Below, piece after piece: positions 2,627-29,142 of a stretch of 64,000 nt of DNA. The notes below the pieces were generated by a model. The model searched no databases, was not told where the DNA came from, and saw only the letters and a list, made by a program, of their open reading frames with translations. How positions within the stretch are numbered: position 1 is the first letter of the stretch; every line of letters begins with the position of its first letter. The stretch comes from Herpetosiphonaceae bacterium (GTDB taxonomy: Bacteria > Chloroflexota > Chloroflexia > Chloroflexales > Kallotenuaceae), in contig DASUTC010000347.1 in NCBI GenBank assembly GCA_036374795.1, positions 62,001 to 126,000 of the forward strand, in the 5' to 3' direction. Position numbers and translations under genes: made by a program.

Positions 2627-3826
2627 ATGTCAGCATTGCACCACACCCCATGGCCCGTCCGCATCGTCGTTCTCGGTGTCCTCCTCGCGTGTATCGGAAC
2701 ATGCGTCGCAGCCCGTGCGGTCGCCGATTCGGGCGCAGCGGAAACGATCTACTTCCCGCTGATCGTCGCCGGATCTGGGATCAACGCCCCGACCCCCTCG
2801 CCGACGGACCCGATGCCGACCGCGCCGGTGCTTGCGACCCCAACACCGGTTGATGTGGATGCCTACCAGACGGAGCTCATCCGCGTGATCAACACCTATC
2901 GCGTCGAGCAGGGCTGCGCCGCGGCGATCGAACAGCCGATGCTGATGGACGGCACACGGACCTGGAATCGGCACATGGTCGAGACCACGGTCATCGAGCA
3001 CTCGCCGATGGGGTATTACCGCCAGTTTGGCTATGACAGCACCAACCAGCGCCTGGGACCGGTCGAAGTGATCCAGGTGGGGAGTGCTACGCCGGCGGCG
3101 GCGGTGCAGGCATGGATTGACCATGCGCCCCACGAGCGCTTGCTCCGCTGGTGCCCGTTTACGGGTGGCATCTACGAGATGGGCGTGTCCTATATTGAAC
3201 CCGGGTATTGGGTGGCGGCCATCGGGTGGTGGGACGCGCCGGCGGGAACACCAACGGCGACGCCAACCGCCACCGCCACGCCAACACCGTCTCCGTCCGC
3301 GACCCCGACCGCGACACCGACGCTGACCCCGACCGCGACACCGACACCCACCGTGACACCGACGCTCACCCCCACAGCGACTGCGACCCCCACAACGACC
3401 ACACCGACACCACCAACGCCGACGGCGACGCCGGTGGATCGACGGGCCTCCCAGGCGGAGCTCATCCGCCTGATCAACACCTATCGCGTTGAGCAGGGCT
3501 GCGCCGCGGCGATCGAGCACCCCATGCTGGTGGCGGGTGCCACCACCTGGAATCAACAGATGGCCGAATCCGGCGTCGTTGCCCACTCGCCGATGGGCTA
3601 TTACCGCCAGTTTGGGTACGATAGCACCAATGGGCGCCAGGGACCGGTCGAGGTCATTGTTGCCCAGGCCGCCACCCCGCAGGATGCCTACCACACCTGG
3701 CTGCTGTCGTCCGCCGATGCGCGGCTATTGCGCTGGTGCCCCTTTGCCGGCGGCGTTTATGAAATTGGGGCATCGTTTATTGAACCGGGCTACTGGGTCG
3801 CCGCTATCGGCTGGTGGGATCGGTAA
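2627..3826 (+). CDS. Secreted protein with two CAP (SCP-like) domains
   Basis: A signal peptide covers about residues 1-35. It is followed by a short IYFPLIV motif, two CAP/SCP-like domains (about residues 80-205 and 280-399) and a Thr/Pro-rich linker between them (about 207-270). Each domain keeps the helix TELIRVINTYRVEQGC, a His-Ser pair in the middle (EHSPMGYYRQFGYDS) and the end GYWVAAIGWWD, plus two Cys (QGCAA and RWCPF) that could form a disulfide. The two copies are very similar in DNA as well as protein, so the duplication is recent or kept uniform by conversion. CAP proteins are extracellular; the substrate or partner here is unknown. Confidence 0.85.
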   Translation: MSALHHTPWPVRIVVLGVLLACIGTCVAARAVADSGAAETIYFPLIVAGSGINAPTPSPTDPMPTAPVLATPTPVDVDAYQTELIRVINTYRVEQGCAAAIEQPMLMDGTRTWNRHMVETTVIEHSPMGYYRQFGYDSTNQRLGPVEVIQVGSATPAAAVQAWIDHAPHERLLRWCPFTGGIYEMGVSYIEPGYWVAAIGWWDAPAGTPTATPTATATPTPSPSATPTATPTLTPTATPTPTVTPTLTPTATATPTTTTPTPPTPTATPVDRRASQAELIRLINTYRVEQGCAAAIEHPMLVAGATTWNQQMAESGVVAHSPMGYYRQFGYDSTNGRQGPVEVIVAQAATPQDAYHTWLLSSADARLLRWCPFAGGVYEIGASFIEPGYWVAAIGWWDR

Positions 3827-3912
3827 CCCGAGCAGCGTCAGGTCTCGGCTTGATGCATCGACGACCGGTGGATGTCCGCAGACATGCACCGTACCTCGTG
3901 AAGGAGCAGATC

Positions 3913-4848
3913 ATGGCTGACCAGCAGCTTCGTGTACGCTCGCGCCTGCCAGCGCTGATTCAGGCGGCCCAAGACCACTGGGGCCCGCTCCCGACCCGGC
4001 GGGTCTTAACCGCGCTGCAGGTCCAGAAAGGCATTGGGGCGCATCAGACGACGATCAAGGATTACCTTGACGATACGGGCCGCAAGTTTTGGTTCGATAC
4101 GCTGGCGCGGATCTGCTGGTTTTTTGGGTGTTCGGTGGATTCCGTGCTGGCGGTGGAACGCGAGCCGGGCGTGCTCCCGCCGGTTGTGATCGGTCGCACC
4201 ACGATCCCAGCGCAGCTGCCGCCGGCCGGGACGGGTGCGATTCGGGTCCTCAACTTCATTCCCGGCCAGGTCGAACTGCACTATTCCCGGGTGCGGGCGC
4301 AGACCACCTGGTATCGCGAAGCCGTCCTGCAACTGATGGAGGGGGGACGGGCGAGCGTGGAGCGGCAGACGCTGGAAACCTTGCTCGCGGTGCTCGACCT
4401 CGACCGCGTGAGCCAGCTGGTCGAGGTCCAGTGTGATCTCCAGGCCGCCGACCCGCAGGCCACCAAACTCGCCGAGGCGATTCGGATCAGGGAGCCGCGC
4501 CCGGTGTGGCTGGAGCGGTGGGAGGAGACCGTGCAGCACTGGCGGAGCTTGGTCGAGCAGATACCGGCGCCCGGCACGGTGACGGCGACCGACATCGCCG
4601 TGCTGCGCTTCCTCCAGCAGCGGTTTGCCACCACCTTGACCCGCGATTCCCTGGCGGTCGGCTTAGGGATTCGGCGCAGCTTGTTACACGCCATCGCGGA
4701 TCGGACGATCCACCCCGAGATCGGCCCTGACGATGTGCCCGCGTCGCTGCGGCACTATCTGGACGAGATTGCACCGGCGGACTGGCTGACGCACGCTGCC
4801 ATCACGGTGGAGCAAGCATATCAACACCAGCAAGGAACCTCCATCTGA
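3913..4848 (+). CDS. Helix-turn-helix regulator with repeated HTH-like segments
   Basis: The start at 3913 is supported by AAGGAG at 3901-3906. The 311-residue protein is soluble. Its N-terminal 80 residues look like a Cro/C1-type HTH: TTIKDYLDD as recognition helix, then WFDTLARICWFFGCSVDSVL, typical of XRE proteins. Two later segments, around residues 135-175 (ETLLAVLDLDRVSQL) and 235-290 (SLAVGLGIRRSLLHAIADR), look like further, diverged HTH units, so it may contact DNA at several points. It lies just upstream of the first copy of the repeated promoter architecture at 4872, which makes it a candidate, but unproven, regulator of that element. Confidence 0.7.
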   Translation: MADQQLRVRSRLPALIQAAQDHWGPLPTRRVLTALQVQKGIGAHQTTIKDYLDDTGRKFWFDTLARICWFFGCSVDSVLAVEREPGVLPPVVIGRTTIPAQLPPAGTGAIRVLNFIPGQVELHYSRVRAQTTWYREAVLQLMEGGRASVERQTLETLLAVLDLDRVSQLVEVQCDLQAADPQATKLAEAIRIREPRPVWLERWEETVQHWRSLVEQIPAPGTVTATDIAVLRFLQQRFATTLTRDSLAVGLGIRRSLLHAIADRTIHPEIGPDDVPASLRHYLDEIAPADWLTHAAITVEQAYQHQQGTSI

Positions 4849-4871
4849 GGAGGCCGCTGAACCGACCCGAT

Positions 4872-4960
4872 CCCCCAACAGTCCCGCTCGTGGTCTAGTC
4901 CTCAACCGGCACGGATTGGCAGATAACGCGGGATTCCCACGGCCCGTTTCGCGGTATCCT
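4872..4960 (+). promoter_or_regulatory. Repeated promoter-like element, copy A
   Basis: This contains CCCCCAACAGTCCCGCTC at 4872, TTGGCAGATAA at 4916 and TATCCTG at 4955. The same three blocks with identical distances (44 and 39 bases) occur at 38319 and 49640. The flanking inverted repeat present in the other two copies is largely lost here. The next start codon is at 5028. Confidence 0.7.
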
Positions 4961-5027
4961 GGTGCAGCGGGTCAGCATGCACGCGTGCTGGTCCAGCCGC
5001 AGCGGACACAGCACCAGGAATCGACGA

Positions 5028-5453
5028 ATGACCGTACACGCAGATGATCCCCACCCCTCACCAGCGCCTCCGGGAGCACCGGAGGCGCGGCAGATCGATC
5101 TGGTGCTCTTCGGCGATCGCCGCTTGGGCGTGCCGCAGCAGGTGGCCCGGGCCGCGACGCTGTTTCAGCGGCAGTTTGGACGTCCGCCGACGGTCGTGGG
5201 CCTGAGCCCCGCGGCGGTCGAGCCGCCGTACCCGGCGCAGATCGCGGGTGTCCCGGTGCGGGTGCGCGCCCAGATCCCCGCTGGCTACCTGTGGGTCGTG
5301 GGCGCCGGCGCGCCGCGGGCTGAAGCGCCGGCGCCAGCTGCGCCCCGCCCGGAGCCACGGTCCCGTCGCCCTGGGCAGCCGCGGCGGGACCGCGCGGACG
5401 CCGCGCCGGACCGCGATGGCGAGCCCGCCGATCGGGCAGGGGGAGGGAACTAA
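5028..5453 (+). CDS. Hypothetical protein downstream of element A
   Basis: The 141-residue product has a small globular part (about residues 20-95, with LVLFGDRRLGVPQQVARA and AGYLWVVGAG) and a Pro/Arg/Ala-rich, probably disordered tail. The ATG at 5028 is chosen over one at 4962 because the latter falls on the end of the TATCCTG box and its added residues look random. No clear ribosome-binding site precedes it. I recognise no family. It is the only gene between element A and the following non-coding repeat, so it may be the whole transcription unit. Confidence 0.55.
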   Translation: MTVHADDPHPSPAPPGAPEARQIDLVLFGDRRLGVPQQVARAATLFQRQFGRPPTVVGLSPAAVEPPYPAQIAGVPVRVRAQIPAGYLWVVGAGAPRAEAPAPAAPRPEPRSRRPGQPRRDRADAAPDRDGEPADRAGGGN

Positions 5454-5456
5454 CCG

Positions 5457-6025
5457 GGCAATACCGATAATCTACCACAATATTCACCCCTCCTAATCCC
5501 ATCCCGCTTTTCCTCCCTTCCCAACCCTGCTCTGCACTGCGCTGCCGTGCCGTGCCGTGCCTAACACCGCCCACGCACTGCTCTGCAGAGCAACCTAGCA
5601 CCCAGCAGCAATCAACCAGGACCGCGTGTGCCGCCGTGCTGCGCCCATCCCGACAGCGCGCACGACCGCGCAGCCGAGACGGAGCCGATCCCCGTCGTTG
5701 ACCGTGACCACCGCGCCGACGCCATTACCCCCGGCGCGTTCGCGTAGAACCACCACCGGGCCCAGTCAAGATCGTCGAAGCTCGGGTTGGAGCCTGCTGG
5801 TCCCTCTGCCCAGGGCAGGCTCAAGCAACCGGGTAAACCAGGATCTGGGGGGACACAGGGAGGATCACTGCAGGTCTAGAAACCGATGGGATGAATCAGG
5901 TCGTTCATAACGATGAAACACGTTCAATCACCTTGAAATCGAGAGACGAAGAAGCAGGTCGGTCAAAAATTCAGAGAAGAGATACACCCAGGATGGGAGA
6001 AGGTTGAGATTATCGGTATCTTGCC
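5457..6025 (+). mobile_element. MITE-like non-coding element, copy 1
   Basis: The stretch carries no convincing gene. Its ends are imperfect inverted repeats: GGCAATACCGATAATCT at 5457 and, at 6007-6025, AGATTATCGGTATCTTGCC, which reads back as the same sequence with two extra bases. Internal blocks (CTCCCTTCCC, GCCGTGCCGTGC, GCGTGTGCCGC, GAGAGACGAAG, TTCAGAGAA) recur in the same order at 10888-11210. No target-site duplication is obvious. A non-autonomous transposon is the best reading; a conserved RNA or plasmid structural element is the alternative. Confidence 0.45.
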
Positions 6026-6101
6026 GCTCTCTGTTGCACGCCCCGTCCCGCCCCACCTGCATCTCCCCTGCTCGACACGGCGCTGCCCTGCGTTCCACCG
6101 C

Positions 6102-6797
6102 TCACGACGAACCACGTGGAAAGGGCAGCACCCAGACCCAGATCAGCACCAGAAAAGCCGCCCCCGCCGCAACCGTCAACAGGTGGAACACCTCATGAAA
6201 GCCGAACATCCGGGGAAACGGGTTGGGTCGTCGCCGTGCGTACACCAGTCCCCCAATCGAGTACAGCACGCCGCCCAGGACAAGCGTCGCGATGGCTTGC
6301 CAGGGCAGCTGCTCCATCAACTGCGGGAGACTGATGAGTGCGAGCCAGCCCATCCCGATGTATAAGGACACCGCGATGCCGCGCGGCAACCGGAATGTGA
6401 GGACGGTGCCAAGGACACCGGCGATCGCCAGCACCCAGATGAGGCTCAAGAGGACAATGCGGAGTCGACCAGCCAGGACGTTCATGTAGATCGGCGTATA
6501 CGTTCCGGCAATCAACACGAAGATATTGGCGTGATCGATGGCCCGCAGCACGCTGCGGGTGCGCCCGCGCCACGACCCCAGATGATACACGGCACTGCCA
6601 GCATACAACATCAGCATGCTGACGCCAAAGACCAGCACGGACAGCATGCGCGGCAGATCGTCGCGGGTCTGGATGAGCATGCGGCTCACGGCGATGACAG
6701 AGGCCACCGCTGCCAGCGCGTGGAACCACCCGCGCAAGCGCGGTTTTGGCAGTTCGTCAGCGAGCGGCATCGGCGAATGAGGTCCGTTGTTGTTCAT
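6102..6797 (-). CDS. Hemolysin III family membrane protein
   Basis: The 231-residue protein has about seven hydrophobic segments. It carries the hallmark residues of the HlyIII/PAQR family: Ser-Ala-x-Tyr-His in GSAVYHLGSW, an Asp in RAIDHANIFVLIAGTYTPI, and a late His pair in GFHEVFHLL, together a probable zinc site in the membrane. Length fits the family (about 200-230). The ATG at 6797 is chosen because it gives this normal length; the frame continues upstream to 7019, but the added residues are unlike the family. No strong ribosome-binding site is visible. It is transcribed away from the KaiC-like gene. Function of bacterial members is poorly known despite the name. Confidence 0.85.
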   Translation of the reverse strand: MNNNGPHSPMPLADELPKPRLRGWFHALAAVASVIAVSRMLIQTRDDLPRMLSVLVFGVSMLMLYAGSAVYHLGSWRGRTRSVLRAIDHANIFVLIAGTYTPIYMNVLAGRLRIVLLSLIWVLAIAGVLGTVLTFRLPRGIAVSLYIGMGWLALISLPQLMEQLPWQAIATLVLGGVLYSIGGLVYARRRPNPFPRMFGFHEVFHLLTVAAGAAFLVLIWVWVLPFPRGSS

Positions 6798-7610
6798 AGA
6801 AAACACGGCTGGAAACCGCTTCCTTTCGGGAGCGGAGGAAAGCCGTCCTCCCAACGTGGCGTCCTGACCGACAGATGAGGCATTCGTCTCTAGCAGGATC
6901 AGTTCCAGCCGCAGCATGTCCAGCACCAGATCCGCACCCACCGACGGCACGCCATCGAGCAGCAGCGTGCCGATCGCCGTACGGGGAGGTTCCTCTTTAA
7001 CAGCTCGTCCACGAACCACTCCGCTCGCTGCGGCTGCCGGACCACCCAGGAAGAGCGTGGGAAAACGACGGGAATTGGATGCGTGGGAGCGCGACCAGCG
7101 CGACGGCGATTGGGTGCGATCGCGCGACGATCAGTAGGGCACGATCAGGCTGGCGCTGGGATCGCTCGCTCCAGGCGAGGCGAGCCGCCTGCCGATTCCT
7201 CGTTCTCCGCGCCGCGCCCGTGACGACACTGACCCTGGTTTGTGACGATGGCGAGGATCAAGCGAATCCGCTGTTGCTTCAGCTGGGTCAGGAGATCACC
7301 GGGCCGCTTCGGTTAAGCGTCGCTCCGATCGCCGCCGGAATCGAGATTCGGGGACGTGGCTACAAGCCCGGTGAGCGATTGGCGCTCCGCCGCCAGCGTC
7401 CACCTCATCCGGGCGTGGCGTGGCGCCATCCCATACGCTGGACCGCATGGCATGTCCCTTGCACGCTGGGCTGCGATGCCCGACACTGCGGACCGCCCCC
7501 TGCGCCTGCCGCCGTCCCCTCCCGCTGGTGTCGGCTGACGGGCAGCGTTCGGAGGTCCACCACGCGCCGCTGCGCGTCACGCGCCGGCACGATCAAGGAG
7601 GAACCTATCG
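6798..7610. other. About 0.8 kb without a convincing gene
   Basis: The region lies between two divergent genes. A minus-strand frame (6798-7019) continuing into the hemolysin III gene reads EEPPRTAIGTLLLDG and LVLDMLRLELILLE; it might be a relic of another gene. The plus-strand frame 7079-7981 is compositionally unlike neighbouring proteins and runs out of phase into the KaiC-like gene. I see no clear promoter. The only firm feature is AAGGAGG at 7595, the ribosome-binding site of the gene at 7611. Confidence 0.4.
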
Positions 7611-9074
7611 ATGACCACACCAAGAGAGCCGTGGGCAACCGGCGTCACGGGCCTGGATCTCCTGCTCGCGGGCGGCCTGCATCGCCACGCCCTCGTCGTG
7701 ATCGTTGGCCCGCCCGGCGCGGGCAAAACCGTGCTGGCCAGCCAGATCCTGTTTCAGGCCGTCCAGCAGAATCGGCGCGGCCTGCTCTTAACCCTGTATG
7801 CCGAAGACCACACCAGCTTGCTGGGCCACCTGCGGCCCTTCGCGTTCTTTCGCGAGCCAGCGGTCGGCGAGACCCTCACGCTCCTGTCCCTCCCATCCCT
7901 GCTCGGCCTGACCATCGACACCGCGACCGCGGCCCTCATGAAGACGATTCGGGAATCTGGGGCGCAGATGGTCCTGATTGACGGCTTTCAGGGCATTGCC
8001 GACCAGCTCCACGACGTGACGGCGCTGCGGCGGCTCCTGGCCGCACTGGTGACCCAGCTGTCCTACCTCGACGTGACGCTGCTGCTGACCCTGACCGGCA
8101 CGGCGCGGGAGGAACCGATCACCATGGGCCTGACCTCAGCGGATGTGGTCCTCGGCTTGCACTATGGCCTGGACGGGGTGCGGCACACGCGGCGGATCGA
8201 GGTGGTCAAGCAGCGGGGCCAGGCGCATCTCCCCGGCGCCCACACCTACACGATCACGCATACGGGGGTCACGATTACCCCGCAACTAGAGGTTCGAGCA
8301 CCGCAGGACATGCAGCCGCGCCCGACGGGTCGGCTGACGTTTCAGGTGGCGGAGTTGGACCACGTGCTGGGGGGCGGGCTGACGGCGGGGACGACGACGT
8401 TGGTGGTCGGCGCGCCGGGGGTCGGCAAGACCACGCTGGGCCTGACCTGGGCGCTGGCGGCGGAGCCGCCCGGCACGAGCATCATGCTCAGCTTTGCGGA
8501 ACGGCTCCCGGACCTCCAGGTGAAGGCCGACTTCCTGGGGCTGCCGCTGGCGGCCGCGCTGGCGGCGGAGACGTTCACCTTTCTCCAGATCAACCCGGTC
8601 CTGCTCAATCCCGACGCGGTGGCCGAGCGCCTGCTGGCAGCGCTGACGCCCACAACCCAGCGGGTGGTGATTGATAATGCCGGGGTGCTGGTGCAGGTCC
8701 TCGGTGGACGCACCGCCGACTACCTCACGGCGCTCGGGAACCACCTGTATGCGGCGGGGGTGACGACGCTGCTGCTGGTGGAAATCAAAGCGTTTGCCGG
8801 GCTGGACTTTGATGTGGCGGACACGCCATTATCCATCCTGGCCGACAATATTGTGATGGTGCAACAGGTGGTGGCCGACGGGGTGCTGCGCCGGGTGCTG
8901 GCGGTCCTCAAAATGCGCTACAGTGGCTACGATGCAACGCTCCGAGAGCTGGTGATTGACGACCAGGGCGTGCGGGTGCTCACCCCCGCGCAGTCAACCA
9001 CCGGGGTGTTAGCGGACGCAGCGGACGCGAGTGGCTTGACGGCCCCGTCCGGCGATTCGCCGCCAGGTGCCTGA
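7611..9074 (+). CDS. KaiC-like double RecA-fold ATPase
   Basis: The start at 7611 follows AAGGAGG at ideal spacing. The 487-residue protein has two KaiC/RadA-type domains. Domain 1 has Walker A GPPGAGKT (33-40) and Walker B around MVLIDGF (120-126); domain 2 has Walker A GAPGVGKT (267-274) and Walker B RVVIDNA (351-357). Domain 2 opens with LDHVLGGGLTAGT, typical of KaiC, and acidic residues follow each first strand (YAED, SFAER). KaiC itself is the clock ATPase of cyanobacteria, but stand-alone KaiC-like proteins in other phyla usually work in signalling. Two receiver-only genes follow on the same strand, supporting a signalling module. No KaiA or KaiB gene is visible. Confidence 0.85.
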   Translation: MTTPREPWATGVTGLDLLLAGGLHRHALVVIVGPPGAGKTVLASQILFQAVQQNRRGLLLTLYAEDHTSLLGHLRPFAFFREPAVGETLTLLSLPSLLGLTIDTATAALMKTIRESGAQMVLIDGFQGIADQLHDVTALRRLLAALVTQLSYLDVTLLLTLTGTAREEPITMGLTSADVVLGLHYGLDGVRHTRRIEVVKQRGQAHLPGAHTYTITHTGVTITPQLEVRAPQDMQPRPTGRLTFQVAELDHVLGGGLTAGTTTLVVGAPGVGKTTLGLTWALAAEPPGTSIMLSFAERLPDLQVKADFLGLPLAAALAAETFTFLQINPVLLNPDAVAERLLAALTPTTQRVVIDNAGVLVQVLGGRTADYLTALGNHLYAAGVTTLLLVEIKAFAGLDFDVADTPLSILADNIVMVQQVVADGVLRRVLAVLKMRYSGYDATLRELVIDDQGVRVLTPAQSTTGVLADAADASGLTAPSGDSPPGA

Positions 9075-9320
9075 GGCGGCTCGGAACCGGCATCCGATCG
9101 AACCGCGTCTCGGCGCCGTTCGTACCCCCATTAGATCCAGGGTTTCGGGCGATCCCGACCCGGGCAGCAGGGTGCGAGAGGTAGTCACCGTCCGGGGCCG
9201 CGCGGAGGACGCACCGGTCCGCCCCTGCGTCATCCCGGCGCAGGGCATCAAACTTGCTCCCCCTGCATAGCTCCCCCACAAGCAGTGACGGGACGGATGC
9301 GCCAGACGTGGGATCGCGGT

Positions 9321-9671
9321 ATGCCAATGATTTTAGTGGTGGAAGATGAAGTGCCGATCGCCGAACTCGTGCGCGAGGTGTGTGTGGACGAGGGCTACGA
9401 GGTGCTGCTGGCCGCCAATGGGCTGGACGCGCTGGCCGTGTTGGAACGCTCGCCCCCGGATCTGGTCCTGTCCGATGTCATGATGCCAAAGCTCGATGGA
9501 CGGGCGCTGTGCCAGGCGATGCACGCCCATCCGGTCTATCGGACGATCCCGATTATCCTGATGAGCGCCGGACGGGCCACGCTGGTCCACGACGTCCCCC
9601 ACAGCGCCTTTCTGCAGAAGCCGTTTTCGCTGGATCGCCTCCTCACGACGATTGCGCACCATCTGCCCTGA
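9321..9671 (+). CDS. Stand-alone response regulator receiver
   Basis: The product is a single CheY-like receiver domain of 116 residues. It has the acidic pair in VVEDE, the phosphoacceptor Asp in VLSDVMMPKLDG, the Ser/Thr position in LMSAG and the Lys in LQKPFS, so it should be phosphorylatable. There is no output domain. The ATG at 9321 puts the protein directly at strand one; a GTG at 9285 would add 12 unusual residues. About 250 bases separate it from the KaiC-like gene, with no gene between. The receiver at 10056 is a close relative. Confidence 0.85.
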   Translation: MPMILVVEDEVPIAELVREVCVDEGYEVLLAANGLDALAVLERSPPDLVLSDVMMPKLDGRALCQAMHAHPVYRTIPIILMSAGRATLVHDVPHSAFLQKPFSLDRLLTTIAHHLP

Positions 9672-10055
9672 TCCCGCGGAAGACGACCTTCTGGCAGGAT
9701 TCTTTAATGCGGAGCTTATTCGACCAGCACCCTGACCTGGCCTGCGTGGCTGCGCGGACAGTCCCAGCCGGGATGCGCTGCCGGTCGCGCCGCATCAGAC
9801 GGGGATGTCTGGACCAGGCGCGGCATGGAGGCCAGCGTGGGCGCTCCTGCACGCATGGTCCATCAGGCGCACCCAGGGCGTGGTCTGGCCGATGACGACC
9901 CGACGGCGCCATCAGGAACCGCCCGGTCCGAGGACCACTGCGCTGGCCGGGAGCCGTGGGGAGCCAACCGGTGGGGGCATGCGCCACCTGGGACCCCCGG
10001 ATCACTGCCAACCGCCGGAGCGTCCAACCGCCCCATCGAGAGCAGGAGGAGCGCG
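9672..10055. other. Intergenic stretch between two receiver genes
   Basis: No frame here has the composition or ribosome-binding site of a gene. Long frames on the minus strand are antisense shadows of high-GC coding sequence that run across both receiver genes. AGGAGGA at 10044-10050 belongs to the next gene. Confidence 0.5.
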
Positions 10056-22338: not shown

Positions 22339-23043
22339 TTATCCTGCCGCCTCGGTACGCTGTGCTTCGCGCTTGGCCTGCTGCTGCTTCTTTGTGGTCA
22401 CGTTCAAAGCGTATACGGTGATTCCAGCATGGCGCGGCTCGTAGGCGGGGTAGCCCTCGATGATCAGCACGTCCTCGGCATCCTTCACCACCCCGGCGAC
22501 TTTGTTCCACTGCTTCTTTGCCACCAGCACGAGATAGTTGGTCTCCTTCGGCGGCGCGGGCAGTCCTTTCGGGAGTGCAGGCTGTTTGTCATTGAGCAGG
22601 CCGAAGATTACCACGTCGCCCCGCTCGACGACCTGCGAGGGACGGCCGATCACGGTCACTTTCACGGTTGCTGCCTTTCCGTACTGCTGCGAGAGGGATT
22701 GCAAGACGTCCGGCAGCTCCTCGGCCTGGAACGGCGGCGGGGCTGCCTGCTTACTCTGCTGCGGACCGCCAAAGACCTTGCCGCGCTGCTGCTTGGTCAT
22801 CCGGTTGCGGGCCAGGTGGAAGAAGACGCCGCCGGTCGTGCGCCGCCGGTTCTCCCGTTCCAGGAACAGCCCGCCTGCGGCTTCAATCGCCTGCGTCTCG
22901 CGCAGCAACTCCTGAGTGACGTCCGCGCCCAGGATTCGGATGATGCGCCAGATCTGGCCCACAGCCTGTGGTGCGGTCTCGCCCAGCACCTCGGCGATCT
23001 GCGCGACGAGCTGGCGGGTAGTTGGTTGTGGGTGTTCGCTCAT
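22339..23043 (-). CDS. PHAX RNA-binding-domain protein
   Basis: The N-terminal third of this 234-residue protein matches the pattern of the PHAX RNA-binding domain: an alpha-helical stretch with VAQIAEVLGE and IRILG, then AAGGLFLERENRRRTTGG with VFFHLARN. The Gly-Gly, the Arg triplet and the TxGGVF turn are the hallmark of that family, known from the eukaryotic snRNA export adaptor and also present in some bacteria. A Pro-rich linker (about residues 105-120) leads to a C-terminal beta-rich domain (about 130-225) that I do not recognise, followed by a Lys/Gln-rich end. The ATG at 23043 has no clear ribosome-binding site. Role on a plasmid is unknown; RNA binding is likely. Confidence 0.75.
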   Translation of the reverse strand: MSEHPQPTTRQLVAQIAEVLGETAPQAVGQIWRIIRILGADVTQELLRETQAIEAAGGLFLERENRRRTTGGVFFHLARNRMTKQQRGKVFGGPQQSKQAAPPPFQAEELPDVLQSLSQQYGKAATVKVTVIGRPSQVVERGDVVIFGLLNDKQPALPKGLPAPPKETNYLVLVAKKQWNKVAGVVKDAEDVLIIEGYPAYEPRHAGITVYALNVTTKKQQQAKREAQRTEAAG

Positions 23044-23247
23044 AGGGGTATTTTCGCAATGGAGCGGCACGCCGTCAAGCCGATATGCGGTACTCGGCTA
23101 GGGCGTGAACTACCGGTACGGTTGTAATTTGCCGCTACGTGCCGAAGTCATACTCGATCGGCTTGTAACGCTTTTGGCAGCAACCCTGTGTGGTGGCCTG
23201 ACCCTGAAAATCCAGAATATAAGGACGACATACATGTGCGACGGGAT

Positions 23248-24576
23248 TTACGCCTCTAACACAAGCTTCAATTGTCGAAGGTGTAGAGTCGGCGAGTAGG
23301 CTATTGCCAACGACGGGTTCGATACGAGTTGAAAACGGAACTTTTGCAGCAGCATCGCTAAAACCAGTCTCACTTCGAGGAGCGCAAACGTCATTCCGAT
23401 ACACATTCGCTCACCCGCTCCGAACGGAAAGTATGCGAGGGGTTGAGACGGCTCACCGCGCGAAAACCGTTCGGGATCAAACCGTGTAGGTTCGGTCCAG
23501 TAGGTTGGCAGGCGATGTGTTACGTATGGGCTCAACATAACGAGAATCTTCGTCTGAGCAACATTCAGCAAATAGTCTCCGATCCTGAAGGTCTCAGATG
23601 TCCTTTTCGCAATGTGCCACGCTGGTGGGTAGAGGCGCAGCGACTCCTTAATAACATGCTGCAGCAGCGGAATTCGGTCGAGGACATCGTGATCGGGCGG
23701 TTGCGTTCCCGCAACATCCTGGATCTGGTTCCGCAGCGCCTCTTGAATCGACGGATGGCGGGCCAATAGGAAGAGCGTCCATGTCAGGACCGTAGCAATT
23801 GTCTCGTGGCCGGCTAACAAGAGTCCGAGAAGCTGATCGCGAATAGCACGCGTGCTTAAGGACTGATTCTGATCATCAAGTACCTGTGTGAGTTGGGTCA
23901 GCATATCTATGCCGCTTGGCGTTGCCCGTTGCTGAAACTCGATCCGTTCATCGACAGCACGATGAATCGTTGGAATAGCTTGTTGTAGCCGGTGGTATGG
24001 AGTACCCGGCACCCTGAGTGGTAGGTTCTTGATCGCATGGACCCCGATTAGATTAGCGATGTAGCTGAAAATGCCATCAAGCCCTTGACTCAGCGCTAGC
24101 TGCCGATCACGCAGATCAATGTCGCCAAACAGAACGCGTCCGATAATGTATAGAGCAAGGTGATGTGTCGCTCGACTGATCTCTATTTGCTGGCCACTGT
24201 GCCAGTCCTGCATCATTTCGTGGGTTGCACGCTGCATCAACTCCGTATATTTCGCCACCTGCCGTCGGCTAAAGAAGGGTTGTAACAGTCGCCGCTGCTG
24301 ACCATGTGCTTCGCCGTCCACCGTGATCAGGCTTGTCCCGATCACTTGTTTTAATGGGCCATAGACTTGTCGGAATATTCTGGCTTGATCCACCAAAATG
24401 GTCCGAATGCTGGCAGTATCACCAGCAAACACCACGGGCGTCGATCCAAGGCGAAACTGGCATGGTGAGCCAAAGCGATGTTCGAGATCGACGAGGAACG
24501 AGATTGGATGACGTTGAAACGCAAGGAGGCTGCCAATGCCCGGTAATCCAGTCGGACCCGGTAACTGTGTGGTCAT
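23248..24576 (-). CDS. Cytochrome P450
   Basis: The 442-residue protein is of normal bacterial P450 length. It has the I-helix AGHET (255-259), ExxR in ESLRL (E311, R314), the PERF motif near 368 (FDPERF) and the heme-binding FPFGAGERMCIG (383-394) with Cys392 as heme ligand. No membrane anchor is seen. Its ATG overlaps the stop of the upstream prenyl-synthase-like gene by one base (TAATG), so it is the last gene of the diterpene operon and most likely oxidises the diterpene product, using electrons from a ferredoxin system not encoded here. The substrate is inferred from context only. Confidence 0.92.
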   Translation of the reverse strand: MTTQLPGPTGLPGIGSLLAFQRHPISFLVDLEHRFGSPCQFRLGSTPVVFAGDTASIRTILVDQARIFRQVYGPLKQVIGTSLITVDGEAHGQQRRLLQPFFSRRQVAKYTELMQRATHEMMQDWHSGQQIEISRATHHLALYIIGRVLFGDIDLRDRQLALSQGLDGIFSYIANLIGVHAIKNLPLRVPGTPYHRLQQAIPTIHRAVDERIEFQQRATPSGIDMLTQLTQVLDDQNQSLSTRAIRDQLLGLLLAGHETIATVLTWTLFLLARHPSIQEALRNQIQDVAGTQPPDHDVLDRIPLLQHVIKESLRLYPPAWHIAKRTSETFRIGDYLLNVAQTKILVMLSPYVTHRLPTYWTEPTRFDPERFSRGEPSQPLAYFPFGAGERMCIGMTFALLEVRLVLAMLLQKFRFQLVSNPSLAIAYSPTLHLRQLKLVLEA

Positions 24577-25436
24577 TATTCGTTTTCCTCATGGCTTGCT
24601 GGATACCAATGCTCGCCCAGGCGACGGCCTAAGCCTATTACGACATCCTGCATCCACGTATCCCGGTGCATAATCGCCGTTTCGGCACGTCCTTGTTTAT
24701 CTTTACGCCATGTCTTCCGCGTATAAGCGGCATCGTAGAGAATGCGTCGAAGAAGATGCGGTGGCAGATAATAGCCAGGTCGTTGAATCCAGTAACACTG
24801 CAGATCCCCTATCAGTAATGGTGGGACCAGTGCTGGAGTTATCGCAGGCTTGCCCGAAGCAATATACAGATTCGCTAACGGTACAGATTCGCCATAGAGT
24901 TCCTGGATGACAGCCTCTCGCGTTTGACGTTGACTCCGGAGAACCGCATCAAACATCCAGCGAAAGGGTGCGTCCTCGTCAAGCATGACCATCCACCACA
25001 GCGTATGGTGGGTGTCCTGTGTTGTACGGTCCCGAAGAAAATGATTTGTATCGACCAAGGAAGGAAGCTCAGCACCGCCCAATAACCGGACCCGCCAGCC
25101 GAGCTGGCGGTAGTCGGCCATTGCTGATTCGCCAGCAATCACGGAGTGGGCATATGTTGCCAACATCTCTTGGTGCGCGCGATTCTCTGCCCAATTGGTT
25201 GGGACAATCGCCGCTGTGAAGACATGTTGGATGCCATGCTGGAATAGCTGCTCAACTGCCTGAATTAATTGGCGGCGACTCCACTGAACATAGTCGTCGC
25301 TTTCGGGTCTTATTCCTGCTAGCGCCGCTGCCCGACGTGTGCCGCCTGGCATATAAATGACGGTACGCGGTGCGATTGCAGCTACCGTCGCCTGATCGGC
25401 GGCCAGAAAGGTTTTTAGGTCAGGTGGATCTGTCAT
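24576..25436 (-). CDS. Rv3378c-like diterpene synthase (prenyltransferase fold)
   Basis: The 286-residue protein resembles the family of Mycobacterium Rv3378c (tuberculosinol synthase) and the Herpetosiphon kolavelool synthase, which have a cis-prenyltransferase fold but remove or replace the diphosphate of a cyclised C20 precursor. Visible support is IYMPGGTRRAAALAG near residue 30, where undecaprenyl synthases have MDGNRRWA, and overall length. The gene overlaps the class II cyclase gene by four bases (ATGA) and is followed by the P450 with a one-base overlap. Expected reaction: conversion of a halimadienyl-, clerodienyl- or kolavenyl-type diphosphate to an alcohol or ether. The exact product cannot be read from sequence. 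Confidence 0.75.
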   Translation of the reverse strand: MTDPPDLKTFLAADQATVAAIAPRTVIYMPGGTRRAAALAGIRPESDDYVQWSRRQLIQAVEQLFQHGIQHVFTAAIVPTNWAENRAHQEMLATYAHSVIAGESAMADYRQLGWRVRLLGGAELPSLVDTNHFLRDRTTQDTHHTLWWMVMLDEDAPFRWMFDAVLRSQRQTREAVIQELYGESVPLANLYIASGKPAITPALVPPLLIGDLQCYWIQRPGYYLPPHLLRRILYDAAYTRKTWRKDKQGRAETAIMHRDTWMQDVVIGLGRRLGEHWYPASHEENE

Positions 25437-26923
25437 TCGGCTCCCAGGACAGCACGACTGGCTACCAGTGCGGTTAAGGACAGGATACGATCAACCAAAA
25501 TGGGCGAATACAATTGTTTTCCGATCCATGTATCAGGCACCGGATCATCAATGTGTTGATCCAACCAGTGATGAGCTGGGGCAAGCATTGGTTGGATCAC
25601 AGCATCGAACCGCGGTTGAAGCACTAATAATGCCAGCATGGCAAAAGTGGTATCTGGTAGTTGAGATGATGTTGGTCCCCACCCGCCATCGGGGTGTTGC
25701 TGCCTCCGCAGCGCATGCATCGTCGAGTCGAGTGCCTGCTCTACCGCTTCCGATGGAGGTGCGAGGGACAGGGGTAACATCGCATGCCAGGCACTATACA
25801 GCCAGCTGACATTCCACTTATCGCGCGGCCAGGTGCCATCTGGAAGCTGACGGGTACACAACCGTCCAACCTCAACATCTATGTTATAGCCATCAATCGC
25901 TAATTGCTGCAGCATACGACCTTGCACCGAAATGGAGCCATGCATCTCCCCTGGATAAGCAGTGAACCCACTCGACATAAACGGCTGAAATATCTCTATG
26001 GCTTGTGGACCTTGCCGACCGGCCGCTCGCACAATTGCTACCGCGGCCGCGGTCGTATCGCCGTCGGTCTGAAAGGCATCACTCATACCAGTACCCCCCG
26101 CAGTACGGAGTCGTTGCAGGAGGTCGTCGACAATCGGTGCGATGAACAACTGTATTTCCGGCTGCTGAAGCAAGCCGAGCGTCGCGAGACCGTAGAGGCT
26201 AAACGTTTGTTCAAACCGAGAGATAGGCCATACGGTTGGGACAACCCCATAAATATGCACACCAGTCGCTGCTGCCGACTGGTGTATATATCTCAAGGCT
26301 CGGGTTCGTGCTCGCTCAAATGAGGGATGCTGCGCTCGGTGCAGCCACAAAGCGGTCGCTGAGGGACTGTGACCAATGCTGCCTGCTCCATCCAGCAGGT
26401 TCTCATCGGCATCTGCACCCCATATTTCCCAGGAGTGCAACGCAGGCGAACCTGCGGCGATCGCTTGCTGTTTGAGCCTCTCCATTCGCCGCCGACTAAA
26501 CTCCATTAATGCCTGATCGGCAAACGGGGGAACGTCCAGGTGGGCTACCCGCGCTTCGGCGACCAGATTCGGAATGATGATCTCGGCTGCAACCGAAAGA
26601 TCAGGCGGAAGCTCCCGTGGCCAGAGCTGATCGATCTCTTGAAGGAGCTTGAGCGCAGCGGCGATTTCGGGGGTGTGCGGATTGATTATCTGGAGGGCTA
26701 AGATAGCAGAGAGCGTCGGGATGATTCGATGGAGCGGTTCATGCGGGTCTCCCCATCCACCATCGGCATACTGTTGATCAAGGAGCCAGGAGATTGCGGG
26801 CTTGACATTGTGCCAGGTGGCAAAACGAATACACTGGGCAGTGTCATAGATGGATGGGGTTATAGCCCCATCCTGTCCAAGCTGCGTAAGAGCAGATAAC
26901 AGCCGTACAAGGGGGGTGTCCAC
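25433..26923 (-). CDS. Class II diterpene cyclase
   Basis: The 496-residue protein has the alpha-barrel style of terpene cyclases: QW-type motifs YADGGWGDP (52-60) and HPDGGWGP (late), and in the middle DGDTTA (287-292), a DxDTT variant of the DxDD motif that protonates GGPP in class II cyclases. The same variant type is reported for the Rv3377c group. The start is a GTG at 26923 with GCGAGG upstream. It should cyclise geranylgeranyl diphosphate to a bicyclic diphosphate (labdane, halimadane or clerodane skeleton). It overlaps the next gene by four bases and lies 53 bases after a sensor kinase gene on the same strand. Base composition is visibly more AT-rich than the flanking surface-protein genes. 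Confidence 0.82.
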   Translation of the reverse strand: MDTPLVRLLSALTQLGQDGAITPSIYDTAQCIRFATWHNVKPAISWLLDQQYADGGWGDPHEPLHRIIPTLSAILALQIINPHTPEIAAALKLLQEIDQLWPRELPPDLSVAAEIIIPNLVAEARVAHLDVPPFADQALMEFSRRRMERLKQQAIAAGSPALHSWEIWGADADENLLDGAGSIGHSPSATALWLHRAQHPSFERARTRALRYIHQSAAATGVHIYGVVPTVWPISRFEQTFSLYGLATLGLLQQPEIQLFIAPIVDDLLQRLRTAGGTGMSDAFQTDGDTTAAAVAIVRAAGRQGPQAIEIFQPFMSSGFTAYPGEMHGSISVQGRMLQQLAIDGYNIDVEVGRLCTRQLPDGTWPRDKWNVSWLYSAWHAMLPLSLAPPSEAVEQALDSTMHALRRQQHPDGGWGPTSSQLPDTTFAMLALLVLQPRFDAVIQPMLAPAHHWLDQHIDDPVPDTWIGKQLYSPILVDRILSLTALVASRAVLGAE

Positions 26924-26976
26924 GATCGGCCTCGCTTTATAGCATGGGTTTATCTCGCCATTACATCAGGTACTTC

Positions 26977-28230
26977 CTATGGTAATGGTAAGAATATATT
27001 AACCCATGCGCCCCCTTTATTACTACCCCCATTATTACCAATTTTAACCGAGCCATGATGCCAAAGTACGATTGCTCGAAGCAGGTTCAGACCCAGCCCA
27101 CCTATCCCTTTGGCACTTGGCACAAGCATGCTGAGATCCCCACGTTCAGCACTATTAATTTGACGAATAACGGCGGGCGGAAATCCGGGGCCGTCGTCCT
27201 GGATGCAGAGCAGCACAGAATGACCGTCTACGGAGGTCGAGATTGATATATCGACCCTTGCTTTGCCACTACGACTGCCGGCTTCTATCGCATTACGTAC
27301 AACGGTGTCGAGTGCCATGAGCAAATATGCAGGTATGCAGCGAATGACTGCGTCTTCAGCGATTTCGTCACGAATCGTAACGGGTATTTGATATTGCCAA
27401 ACGCTGCTTTCCTTCACAAGATCAGAAATCAATCCACGCAGTGAAACAAGTTGGAATTCTTCAGGCAACTTACCTTGCGCAATAACTAGCAGATGCTGCA
27501 TCATCGTATCCAGACGTTGCGCTCGGCCTTCGAGTCCTCCAAGGACGACGCCATCCCAGGATTCCGTTAAATTCACGGAGCCGTCGGCGACACCCCGAGC
27601 GAGGGCGACCAAGCCACGGACCCCGTTCGCCTGAGCCTGCAGTTCATGTTGAAGGCTCCGGATCAGCATACGAAAATTGCGCTCTATTTGTAGTTGTTGC
27701 TCGGTATCAACAAGCCGGTTTGCGTCTTTCAAGGCACGTTCCAGAGAATGCATAATGATACCGACGATCAGCCCCGTCATCACTATGGTGAACAGCGCCG
27801 TGGACGAGTTGATTGTCCACATACTATAGGCGATCCCAAGTGACACAAACAGCACGACCGCAGTACCTAACAAAATCCAGATACCTCGCGCGCCGCCCGT
27901 AATACCGCCAATTGCAATGGCGATGATATACGTGGTGCCGAGCGGGGAATCCATCAGATCGGGGCCTGGGAGTGTCGAGATGCAATAAATTAAAGCCCCT
28001 GCAAGACCATACCCTCCTATCAGGAGCGACTTTTGATTGCGAGCGGTAAAGGCAACGATCGAAAAAATCATGAGGATGCAGCAATTCACCAGGTTAAGAC
28101 GAGTCATGAGTGGATTTAATAACACGATTGGCAGCGCGATTATTGATGCGATGCCGAGCATCAAGGCCGCCGTGCGTAGTAACCACAAACGTTCCCGCAT
28201 ATCCACAGGATGCTGAATACGAGCGTTCAC
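26977..28230 (-). CDS. Membrane sensor histidine kinase
   Basis: The 417-residue protein has about six N-terminal membrane segments (residues 15-175) with hardly any periplasmic loop, then a coiled helix and a kinase core. The phosphoacceptor His is in LIRSLQHELQ (about residue 195), the N box is VVRNAIEAG, and ATP-binding boxes are IQDDGPGFP and GIGGLGLNL. The GTG start at 28230 has GAGGAAC upstream. It sits directly before the diterpene genes on the same strand and is divergent from a response regulator 60 bases away, so it probably forms a pair with that regulator and may sense a membrane-related cue that controls the operon. Confidence 0.85.
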   Translation of the reverse strand: MNARIQHPVDMRERLWLLRTAALMLGIASIIALPIVLLNPLMTRLNLVNCCILMIFSIVAFTARNQKSLLIGGYGLAGALIYCISTLPGPDLMDSPLGTTYIIAIAIGGITGGARGIWILLGTAVVLFVSLGIAYSMWTINSSTALFTIVMTGLIVGIIMHSLERALKDANRLVDTEQQLQIERNFRMLIRSLQHELQAQANGVRGLVALARGVADGSVNLTESWDGVVLGGLEGRAQRLDTMMQHLLVIAQGKLPEEFQLVSLRGLISDLVKESSVWQYQIPVTIRDEIAEDAVIRCIPAYLLMALDTVVRNAIEAGSRSGKARVDISISTSVDGHSVLLCIQDDGPGFPPAVIRQINSAERGDLSMLVPSAKGIGGLGLNLLRAIVLWHHGSVKIGNNGGSNKGGAWVNIFLPLP

Positions 28231-28290
28231 TTAGTTCCTCGCTTTGTCCCGGCCCACTATACTATAGTCTAAGCATAGGGAGCCTACCGC

Positions 28291-29142
28291 ATGATAGACG
28301 GAACTCTAGATCTTTTGCTGATTGAAGACGATCCGATGGACGCTACAGTTCAAACGCTAATTCTTCGGTCAGTTGGCTGTCGAGTCTCCCTCGCCTCGTC
28401 GGTTGTGGAAGGCGAGGACCTGGCAATGGCGATGCTTGCCACAACGAACACGCAACCTGTCGGCATCGTCACAGATCTTAAGCTCCGCGACCTGATACTT
28501 TCGCGGATCGAAGGATCTGCACTTGCGGCTGTTCTTGCCGGTCGGATGCTGGACGGATTGATTCGTCCAGCACCAATCATTGCGATTACGAGTGACATGA
28601 CGGATGAACGACGCAACGAGGCGTTAAGTGCTGGGTGTACCCTCGTGCTTTCAAAACCGCTCCGTATTGATCAGGCATCCCAGATTTACGATCTTACGAT
28701 GCACTATACGACTCCAACCGTTGATCCAGTTCGTGCGCACGGCATCCAACTCCTACGCGGCTTTATGGAAAAAGTCCTAAGCAGCTTGCGGGAAAATCGC
28801 CCTCCAACGGTTTGGACAGCCGAGGCTATTTTCCAGATCCTATGTGCCGTGACCTCGTACTCCCCGCCCCGGACGGCGGCATTTGCTCTAGATCCGCACA
28901 AGCAAGCCGTGCTTGTGCGATCGATGGGAGGTTCCCAGCTTGCTAGGGAATTACTCGAAAGATACGCGCTGATGGCACGAGAAACTCCTGCTGGCCGAAT
29001 GATCGCGCTGTATTTGGAGGGCTATCCAACTAATCGAGTGATCCACATCCTGATTGATCGAGGATACGCCAAGAGCTACCTCTACCGCGTCAACGAGCAC
29101 TTGCCAGAATTGATTAGTAAATGGATCGCCGCTCAGATGTAA
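28291..29142 (+). CDS. Response regulator with unrecognised C-terminal output domain
   Basis: Residues 1-135 form a receiver with acidic pair in LLIEDDPMD, phosphoacceptor Asp in GIVTDLKLRD, Thr/Ser in AITSD and Lys in VLSKPLR. The receiver has a longer alpha-2/beta-3 region than usual. The remaining 145 residues are mostly helical and end with MIALYLEGYPTNRVIHILIDRGYAKSYLYR-like spacing (key motif NRVIHILIDRGY), which fits a helix-turn-helix output. It is divergent from the sensor kinase gene, with the 60-base gap holding TATACT and TATAGT boxes on opposite strands. Probably the transcription factor for the diterpene operon; that is inference. Confidence 0.75.
   Translation: MIDGTLDLLLIEDDPMDATVQTLILRSVGCRVSLASSVVEGEDLAMAMLATTNTQPVGIVTDLKLRDLILSRIEGSALAAVLAGRMLDGLIRPAPIIAITSDMTDERRNEALSAGCTLVLSKPLRIDQASQIYDLTMHYTTPTVDPVRAHGIQLLRGFMEKVLSSLRENRPPTVWTAEAIFQILCAVTSYSPPRTAAFALDPHKQAVLVRSMGGSQLARELLERYALMARETPAGRMIALYLEGYPTNRVIHILIDRGYAKSYLYRVNEHLPELISKWIAAQM

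Follow-up and report, generated by a model that had tools for sequence, protein, structure and literature searches.

A known pair of diterpene enzymes, a class II cyclase and a synthase of the Rv3378c/HaKS type, occurs in a new and recurrent association with membrane sensing. In the window (the whole 64,000-nucleotide stretch of DNA analysed here) the pair lies in an operon that begins with the gene of a membrane sensor histidine kinase (HK), and signalling genes of this kind recur at related loci. Among 48 loci, drawn from 400 Chloroflexota genomes and named genomes and dereplicated at 75% identity, the gene directly adjoining on the same strand within 350 bp encodes an HK or STAS protein at 26, against 2.7% for other genes of these regions (P 2e-28); within 2 kb on the same strand such a gene occurs at 34, against 6 of 126 background genes (P 6e-19). 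The P values are indicative, since the loci are related to one another and share their contigs with the background genes. At phytoene/squalene synthase loci of the same genomes no HK or STAS gene was found within ~1.5 kb (0 of 16). Reading 31 dereplicated synthase loci, mostly from Chloroflexota, by hand one by one, we found a same-strand sensor-type gene (HK, PAS-kinase, STAS or GAF) at 27: an HK in the window, L031, L033, L042, L044-L048, L094, L099, L104, L109, L126 and L137-L139, a STAS protein at L032, L035, L043, L096, L101, L107, L108 and L093 (where the contig stops inside a protein that shares the membrane and coiled-coil part of the STAS group), and a membrane GAF protein at L098 and L110. 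The sensor is on the opposite strand at L037 and L111, GGDEF/EAL proteins begin at a distance of 164 bp in the cyanobacterial locus L112, and only L049, a distant paralogue, is without a signalling gene. At L112 (Chroococcidiopsidaceae, 3692-9983) the enzyme pair is divergent from a PAS-GAF-GGDEF-nitroreductase protein and a GGDEF-EAL protein. The type of partner changes nine times on the cyclase tree and eight times on the synthase tree, and the trees force several separate changes of partner. By this count the kinase is no oddity, and one is also present upstream of the published Herpetosiphon cluster. The statement of the preliminary description that a leading kinase and a divergent regulator are undescribed for such clusters holds in part: both genes are real and we found no paper on diterpene genes linked to a membrane sensor, but a sensor turns out to be the rule.

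The operon of the window consists of four minus-strand genes in the order HK, cyclase, synthase and P450, with a gap of 53 bp between the first two, an overlap of 4 bp between cyclase and synthase and one of 1 bp between synthase and P450, so that the one-strand unit described earlier is borne out by the open reading frame coordinates. Each gene is preceded by a purine-rich ribosome-binding site, and catalytic or signature motifs are intact in all four and in the divergent regulator. Chance adjacency is excluded because the arrangement recurs in relatives, and from the layout we infer that the kinase is co-transcribed with the biosynthetic genes. The window occupies positions 62001-126000 of a 206.5 kb contig in a 7.75 Mb genome that belongs to the same order as Herpetosiphon. 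The contig carries genes for ParA, ParM/ParB-like and DnaA_N-containing rep-like proteins, transposases and one doubtful tRNA, several of the plasmid-type names having been given by eye from the sequences, and a comparison of its ends revealed no terminal overlap. It is plasmid-like, and the earlier description of the operon as 'plasmid-borne' is likely to hold. Adjoining parA, the stretch 22339-23070 has a strong match to the PHAX RNA-binding domain (PF10258, E 2e-17). This domain is best known from eukaryotic RNA export.

The cyclase (25433..26923, minus strand) belongs, as judged by homology, tree position and motif, to the bacterial class II diterpene cyclases and not to the hopanoid enzymes. 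It matches Pfam SQHop_cyclase_C (E 2e-11), and its top solved structure is 6vpt, labelled 'Cyclase', which we take to be Rv3377c (E 5e-26, as against 1e-4 for squalene-hopene cyclase); clustering with hopanoid enzymes is thus disfavoured by the structure matches, the cyclase tree itself containing no squalene-hopene cyclase. The DXDD-type acid motif reads DGDTT at residue 287, and DCDTT in Rv3377c. In the tree the protein falls, with support of 99/98, inside a clade of 19 sequences that also holds the Herpetosiphon and other Chloroflexales enzymes, while Rv3377c is placed elsewhere. It is nevertheless divergent, with an end branch of 1.08 and ~29% identity to Rv3377c. The genome encodes a second class II cyclase, 42% identical to this one, beside purK on another contig (L041, G000:C24, 12592-14187), with neither a synthase nor a sensor gene adjoining.

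The synthase (24576..25436, minus strand) has no Pfam model, and by its match to Rv3378c structures (3wqk, E 4e-14) and its motif GGTRR at residue 31 it is assigned to the Rv3378c/HaKS family, without the Asp of Rv3378c proper. The GxRR core is conserved, G32, R34 and R35 being invariant in the alignment, but the Asp of the FDGTRR motif of Rv3378c is absent both from the window (PGGTRR) and from Herpetosiphon (GGSRR). On the tree the window synthase has the L032 synthase as its sister (95/94), the two loci differing in output domain (HK and STAS, respectively), and Rv3378c lies elsewhere. Structure matches and trees together agree with the earlier assignment of the pair to the type found in M. 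tuberculosis and Herpetosiphon. A tblastn search of a plasmid collection returned cyclases at ~35% identity only, most of them rhizobial and of what appears to be the gibberellin type, and no synthase homologue.

The last gene encodes a cytochrome P450 (23248..24576, minus strand; PF00067, E 2e-78; heme motif FGAGERMCIG at 385, ESLR, AGHET). A P450 homologue is nearby at only 1 of the 48 loci, and we rejected the P450 as a conserved partner of the enzyme pair. Other accessory genes recur more often. A nucleoside hydrolase that apparently has an N-terminal signal sequence adjoins the cyclase at 6 of the 48 loci, compared with 1 of 126 background genes (P 2e-3): L032 (5310-6551), L093 (6488-7660), L101 (7212-8372), L107 (2538-3707), L110 (8713-9891) and L111 (7120-8346); in two genomes (G070 and G359) it is the sole gene of its kind. 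A HAD phosphatase-like gene is near four of the 48 loci and none of the 126 background genes, and Rv3376, which adjoins the tuberculosis pair, is likewise a HAD protein (PMC11476799). These two genes hint at terpenyl nucleosides at some loci. Both are missing from the window, which has the P450 instead.

The first gene (26977..28230, minus strand) encodes a protein that fits a two-component histidine kinase in sequence, with the H-box LQHELQ at 193, N, G1 and G2 boxes and HATPase_c at residues 304-416 (E 4e-11); Pfam HisKA stays below threshold, and the DHp domain was recognised by its H-box. Residues 1-172 form a six-TM input domain, which the AlphaFold2 model presents as six long membrane helices plus a short connecting helix (mean pLDDT 91), without an extracytoplasmic domain. 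A fold search of this domain against the PDB returned no matching solved structure, so that no binding pocket can be derived for it.

When the N-terminal 213 residues of the kinase, mostly transmembrane, were compared with the 400 Chloroflexota genomes, the top outside match was the STAS protein of L032 (E 1e-12), whose gene overlaps the synthase gene there, followed by STAS proteins that flank a polyprenyl-synthase-like gene at G309:C3. At this latter locus (L058, 7270-11815) three six-TM STAS genes surround the divergent polyprenyl-synthase-like gene, possibly another pairing of terpenoid and sensor. In HHalign comparisons against a profile of 31 transmembrane sequences, probabilities were 95-97 for the Herpetosiphon kinases, 89-97 for TM-GAF proteins (97 for those of L098, L102 and L103, encoded directly after the synthase) and 99.9 for the HK of L109, whose gene is 3 bp from the synthase gene; the kinases of family f13, described below, are also joined to the input-domain family in this way. 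The short STAS input domains are weakly related singly and reach 92.9 as a group, and membrane proteins from outside diterpene loci score at most about 32. Related input domains are joined to HK, PAS-HK, HK with receivers, STAS and GAF outputs. The domain is enriched at diterpene loci but not exclusive to them: exclusivity was rejected, as it is also found alone, e.g. in HK-REC proteins of G046 and G392, and close sensor relatives have no diterpene genes nearby in G046, G392, G150 and G232. Many profile seeds were picked beside diterpene genes, which makes the whole-genome profile search partly circular.

Divergently from the operon lies a response regulator gene (28291..29142, plus strand). 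Its receiver is a borderline Pfam match to Response_reg (E 6e-7) with the receiver D, T and K present, and is followed by an all-helical C-terminal domain, the structure matches resting on the receiver part. This regulator family, with an undescribed all-helical C-terminal domain, has nine matches in the genome (L223-L232). The 60 bp between the kinase and regulator genes (28231..28290), a putative divergent promoter region, contain the palindrome ACTATAGT at 28262-28269; a sigma-70 promoter scan gave fewer matches than in shuffled sequences and none at the operon start.

What does the sensor read? We propose, with a probability of about 0.45, that the unit couples diterpenoid synthesis to a dedicated membrane sensor for that same diterpenoid. 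The class II cyclase, to judge by its homologues, would convert GGPP into a bicyclic diphosphate, the Rv3378c/HaKS-type enzyme would exchange the diphosphate for water or another acceptor, and the P450 would then oxidise the product; whether the skeleton is halimadane or clerodane is not readable from the sequence, and the product of the window cannot be named. Being hydrophobic, the product would enter the membrane and there be sensed by the six-helix input domain, upon which the kinase would phosphorylate the divergent response regulator and so alter gene expression. As outputs vary among the relatives, selection probably keeps the link between enzymes and input domain and not any one output. 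We favour product sensing because this conserved link joins the enzymes to the input domain, while the outputs differ from locus to locus and are often unable to bind DNA: a DNA-binding domain is absent from many of them (STAS, GAF, single-domain receivers), which would suit a receptor more than a local switch of transcription. The sensor relatives away from diterpene genes and the L041 cyclase without a sensor speak against it, as do the weak single relationships of the short STAS input domains and the partial circularity of the profile search.

The main rival, quite possible in our opinion, is ordinary two-component control by the environment, where an external cue (redox, light, nutrient or prey) acts on the kinase, the regulator switches the operon on, and the product serves in defence or in the membrane without being sensed itself. 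The layout of the window, with the kinase in the operon and the regulator divergent across a 60-bp promoter region with a palindrome, is the classical one for such control, and kinases are plentiful in these bacteria (41-129 HATPase_c genes per genome). However, no transcription factor is conserved in the relatives, whose outputs are STAS, GAF or receiver-only, and the linkage tracks the enzyme across many output types. DesK reads the thickness or order of the membrane, and a third, unlikely explanation is that the diterpenoid orders the membrane and the sensor reads thickness or order instead of the molecule. A six-helix input without an extracytoplasmic domain and a product expected to be hydrophobic would suit this, as STAS and GAF outputs would suit stress signalling, but no conserved output towards lipid metabolism was seen at the loci, and the P450, nucleoside hydrolase and methyltransferase found at some of them point to a decorated metabolite. 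Mere hitch-hiking, in which neighbourhoods in signalling-rich genomes reflect chance or ancestral synteny without function, draws on the part of the association that is shared descent inside clades and is already disfavoured to the point of being very improbable by the 20-fold excess over background, the absence at control terpene loci and the several partner changes forced on the trees.

Returning to product sensing, the almost constant presence of a membrane sensor beside one terpene-synthase family opens a direct, testable way towards a diterpenoid signal in bacteria, and only if product sensing is true would the association form a new category. To our knowledge, the roles usually assigned to bacterial terpenes are those of weapon, scent or membrane component, and a receptor for them has rarely been proposed. 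A wider and rather doubtful extension is that diterpenoids of Chloroflexota are dedicated signals, read by co-encoded six-helix receptors with exchangeable outputs, and that the M. tuberculosis genes derive from such units with the receptor lost; the signals would at some loci perhaps be diterpenyl nucleosides, given the nucleoside hydrolase and HAD genes.

Near-orthologues of Rv3377c/Rv3378c are found in the Chloroflexota family f13 (L042, L044-L048, L126, L129, L137 and L138), where the usual operon order is synthase, cyclase, PAS kinase and single-domain receiver. The f13 synthase is 48% identical to Rv3378c (E 6e-85) and the cyclase up to 51.5% identical to Rv3377c (E 2e-150), both far closer than other sequences in the sample. 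Rv3377c is nested in the f13 clade (100/100) as sister to G018 (97/98), and Rv3378c is likewise nested (98/96), next to genus g30 (87/85), the same genus as for Rv3377c; the sample comprised Chloroflexota together with a single cyanobacterium and a rhizobial outgroup, and this placement does not establish the donor. A 2024 study reported that the M. tuberculosis 1-TbAd genes have no orthologues beyond the mycobacteria, and proposed a plant-associated plasmid as their origin (PMC11476799). Family f13 is a possible source of these genes and may represent the original context of the 1-TbAd locus.

The M. tuberculosis pair, which makes 1-tuberculosinyladenosine (PMC11476799), shares with the window both enzyme families and a DXDTT-type cyclase motif, and differs in the low cyclase identity given above and in the Asp of FDGTRR, which is Gly in the window. 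RsbR-like proteins resemble the window's relatives in their STAS output (PF01740), but have a soluble sensor in contrast to the six-helix membrane input of these relatives, and the output in the window is a kinase. The CqsA/CqsS and LqsA/LqsS systems also link the gene of a small-molecule synthase to that of a multi-helix membrane kinase, the CqsA and CqsS genes being usually adjacent and the membrane domain of the kinase being the ligand-sensing part (PMC3285556); the chemistry of these synthases is unrelated. Under product sensing the unit of the window would be a functional counterpart of CqsA/CqsS, with the synthase gene adjoining that of its own receptor. Another close system is the O-methylkolavelool cluster of Herpetosiphon aurantiacus, with Haur_2145 and the kolavelool synthase HaKS (Nakano 2015, as cited in PMC9440906 and PMC5704754), for which the open literature on Herpetosiphon terpenes that we found names no kinase. 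Its gene order (L114, CP000875) is HK-REC-REC, REC, cyclase, synthase and methyltransferase, so that a methyltransferase takes the place of the P450 and the kinase is a hybrid with two receivers, accompanied by a separate receiver gene. In common with the window it has a 4 bp overlap of cyclase and synthase, enzymes of the same families in the same half of the tree, and a histidine kinase encoded upstream.
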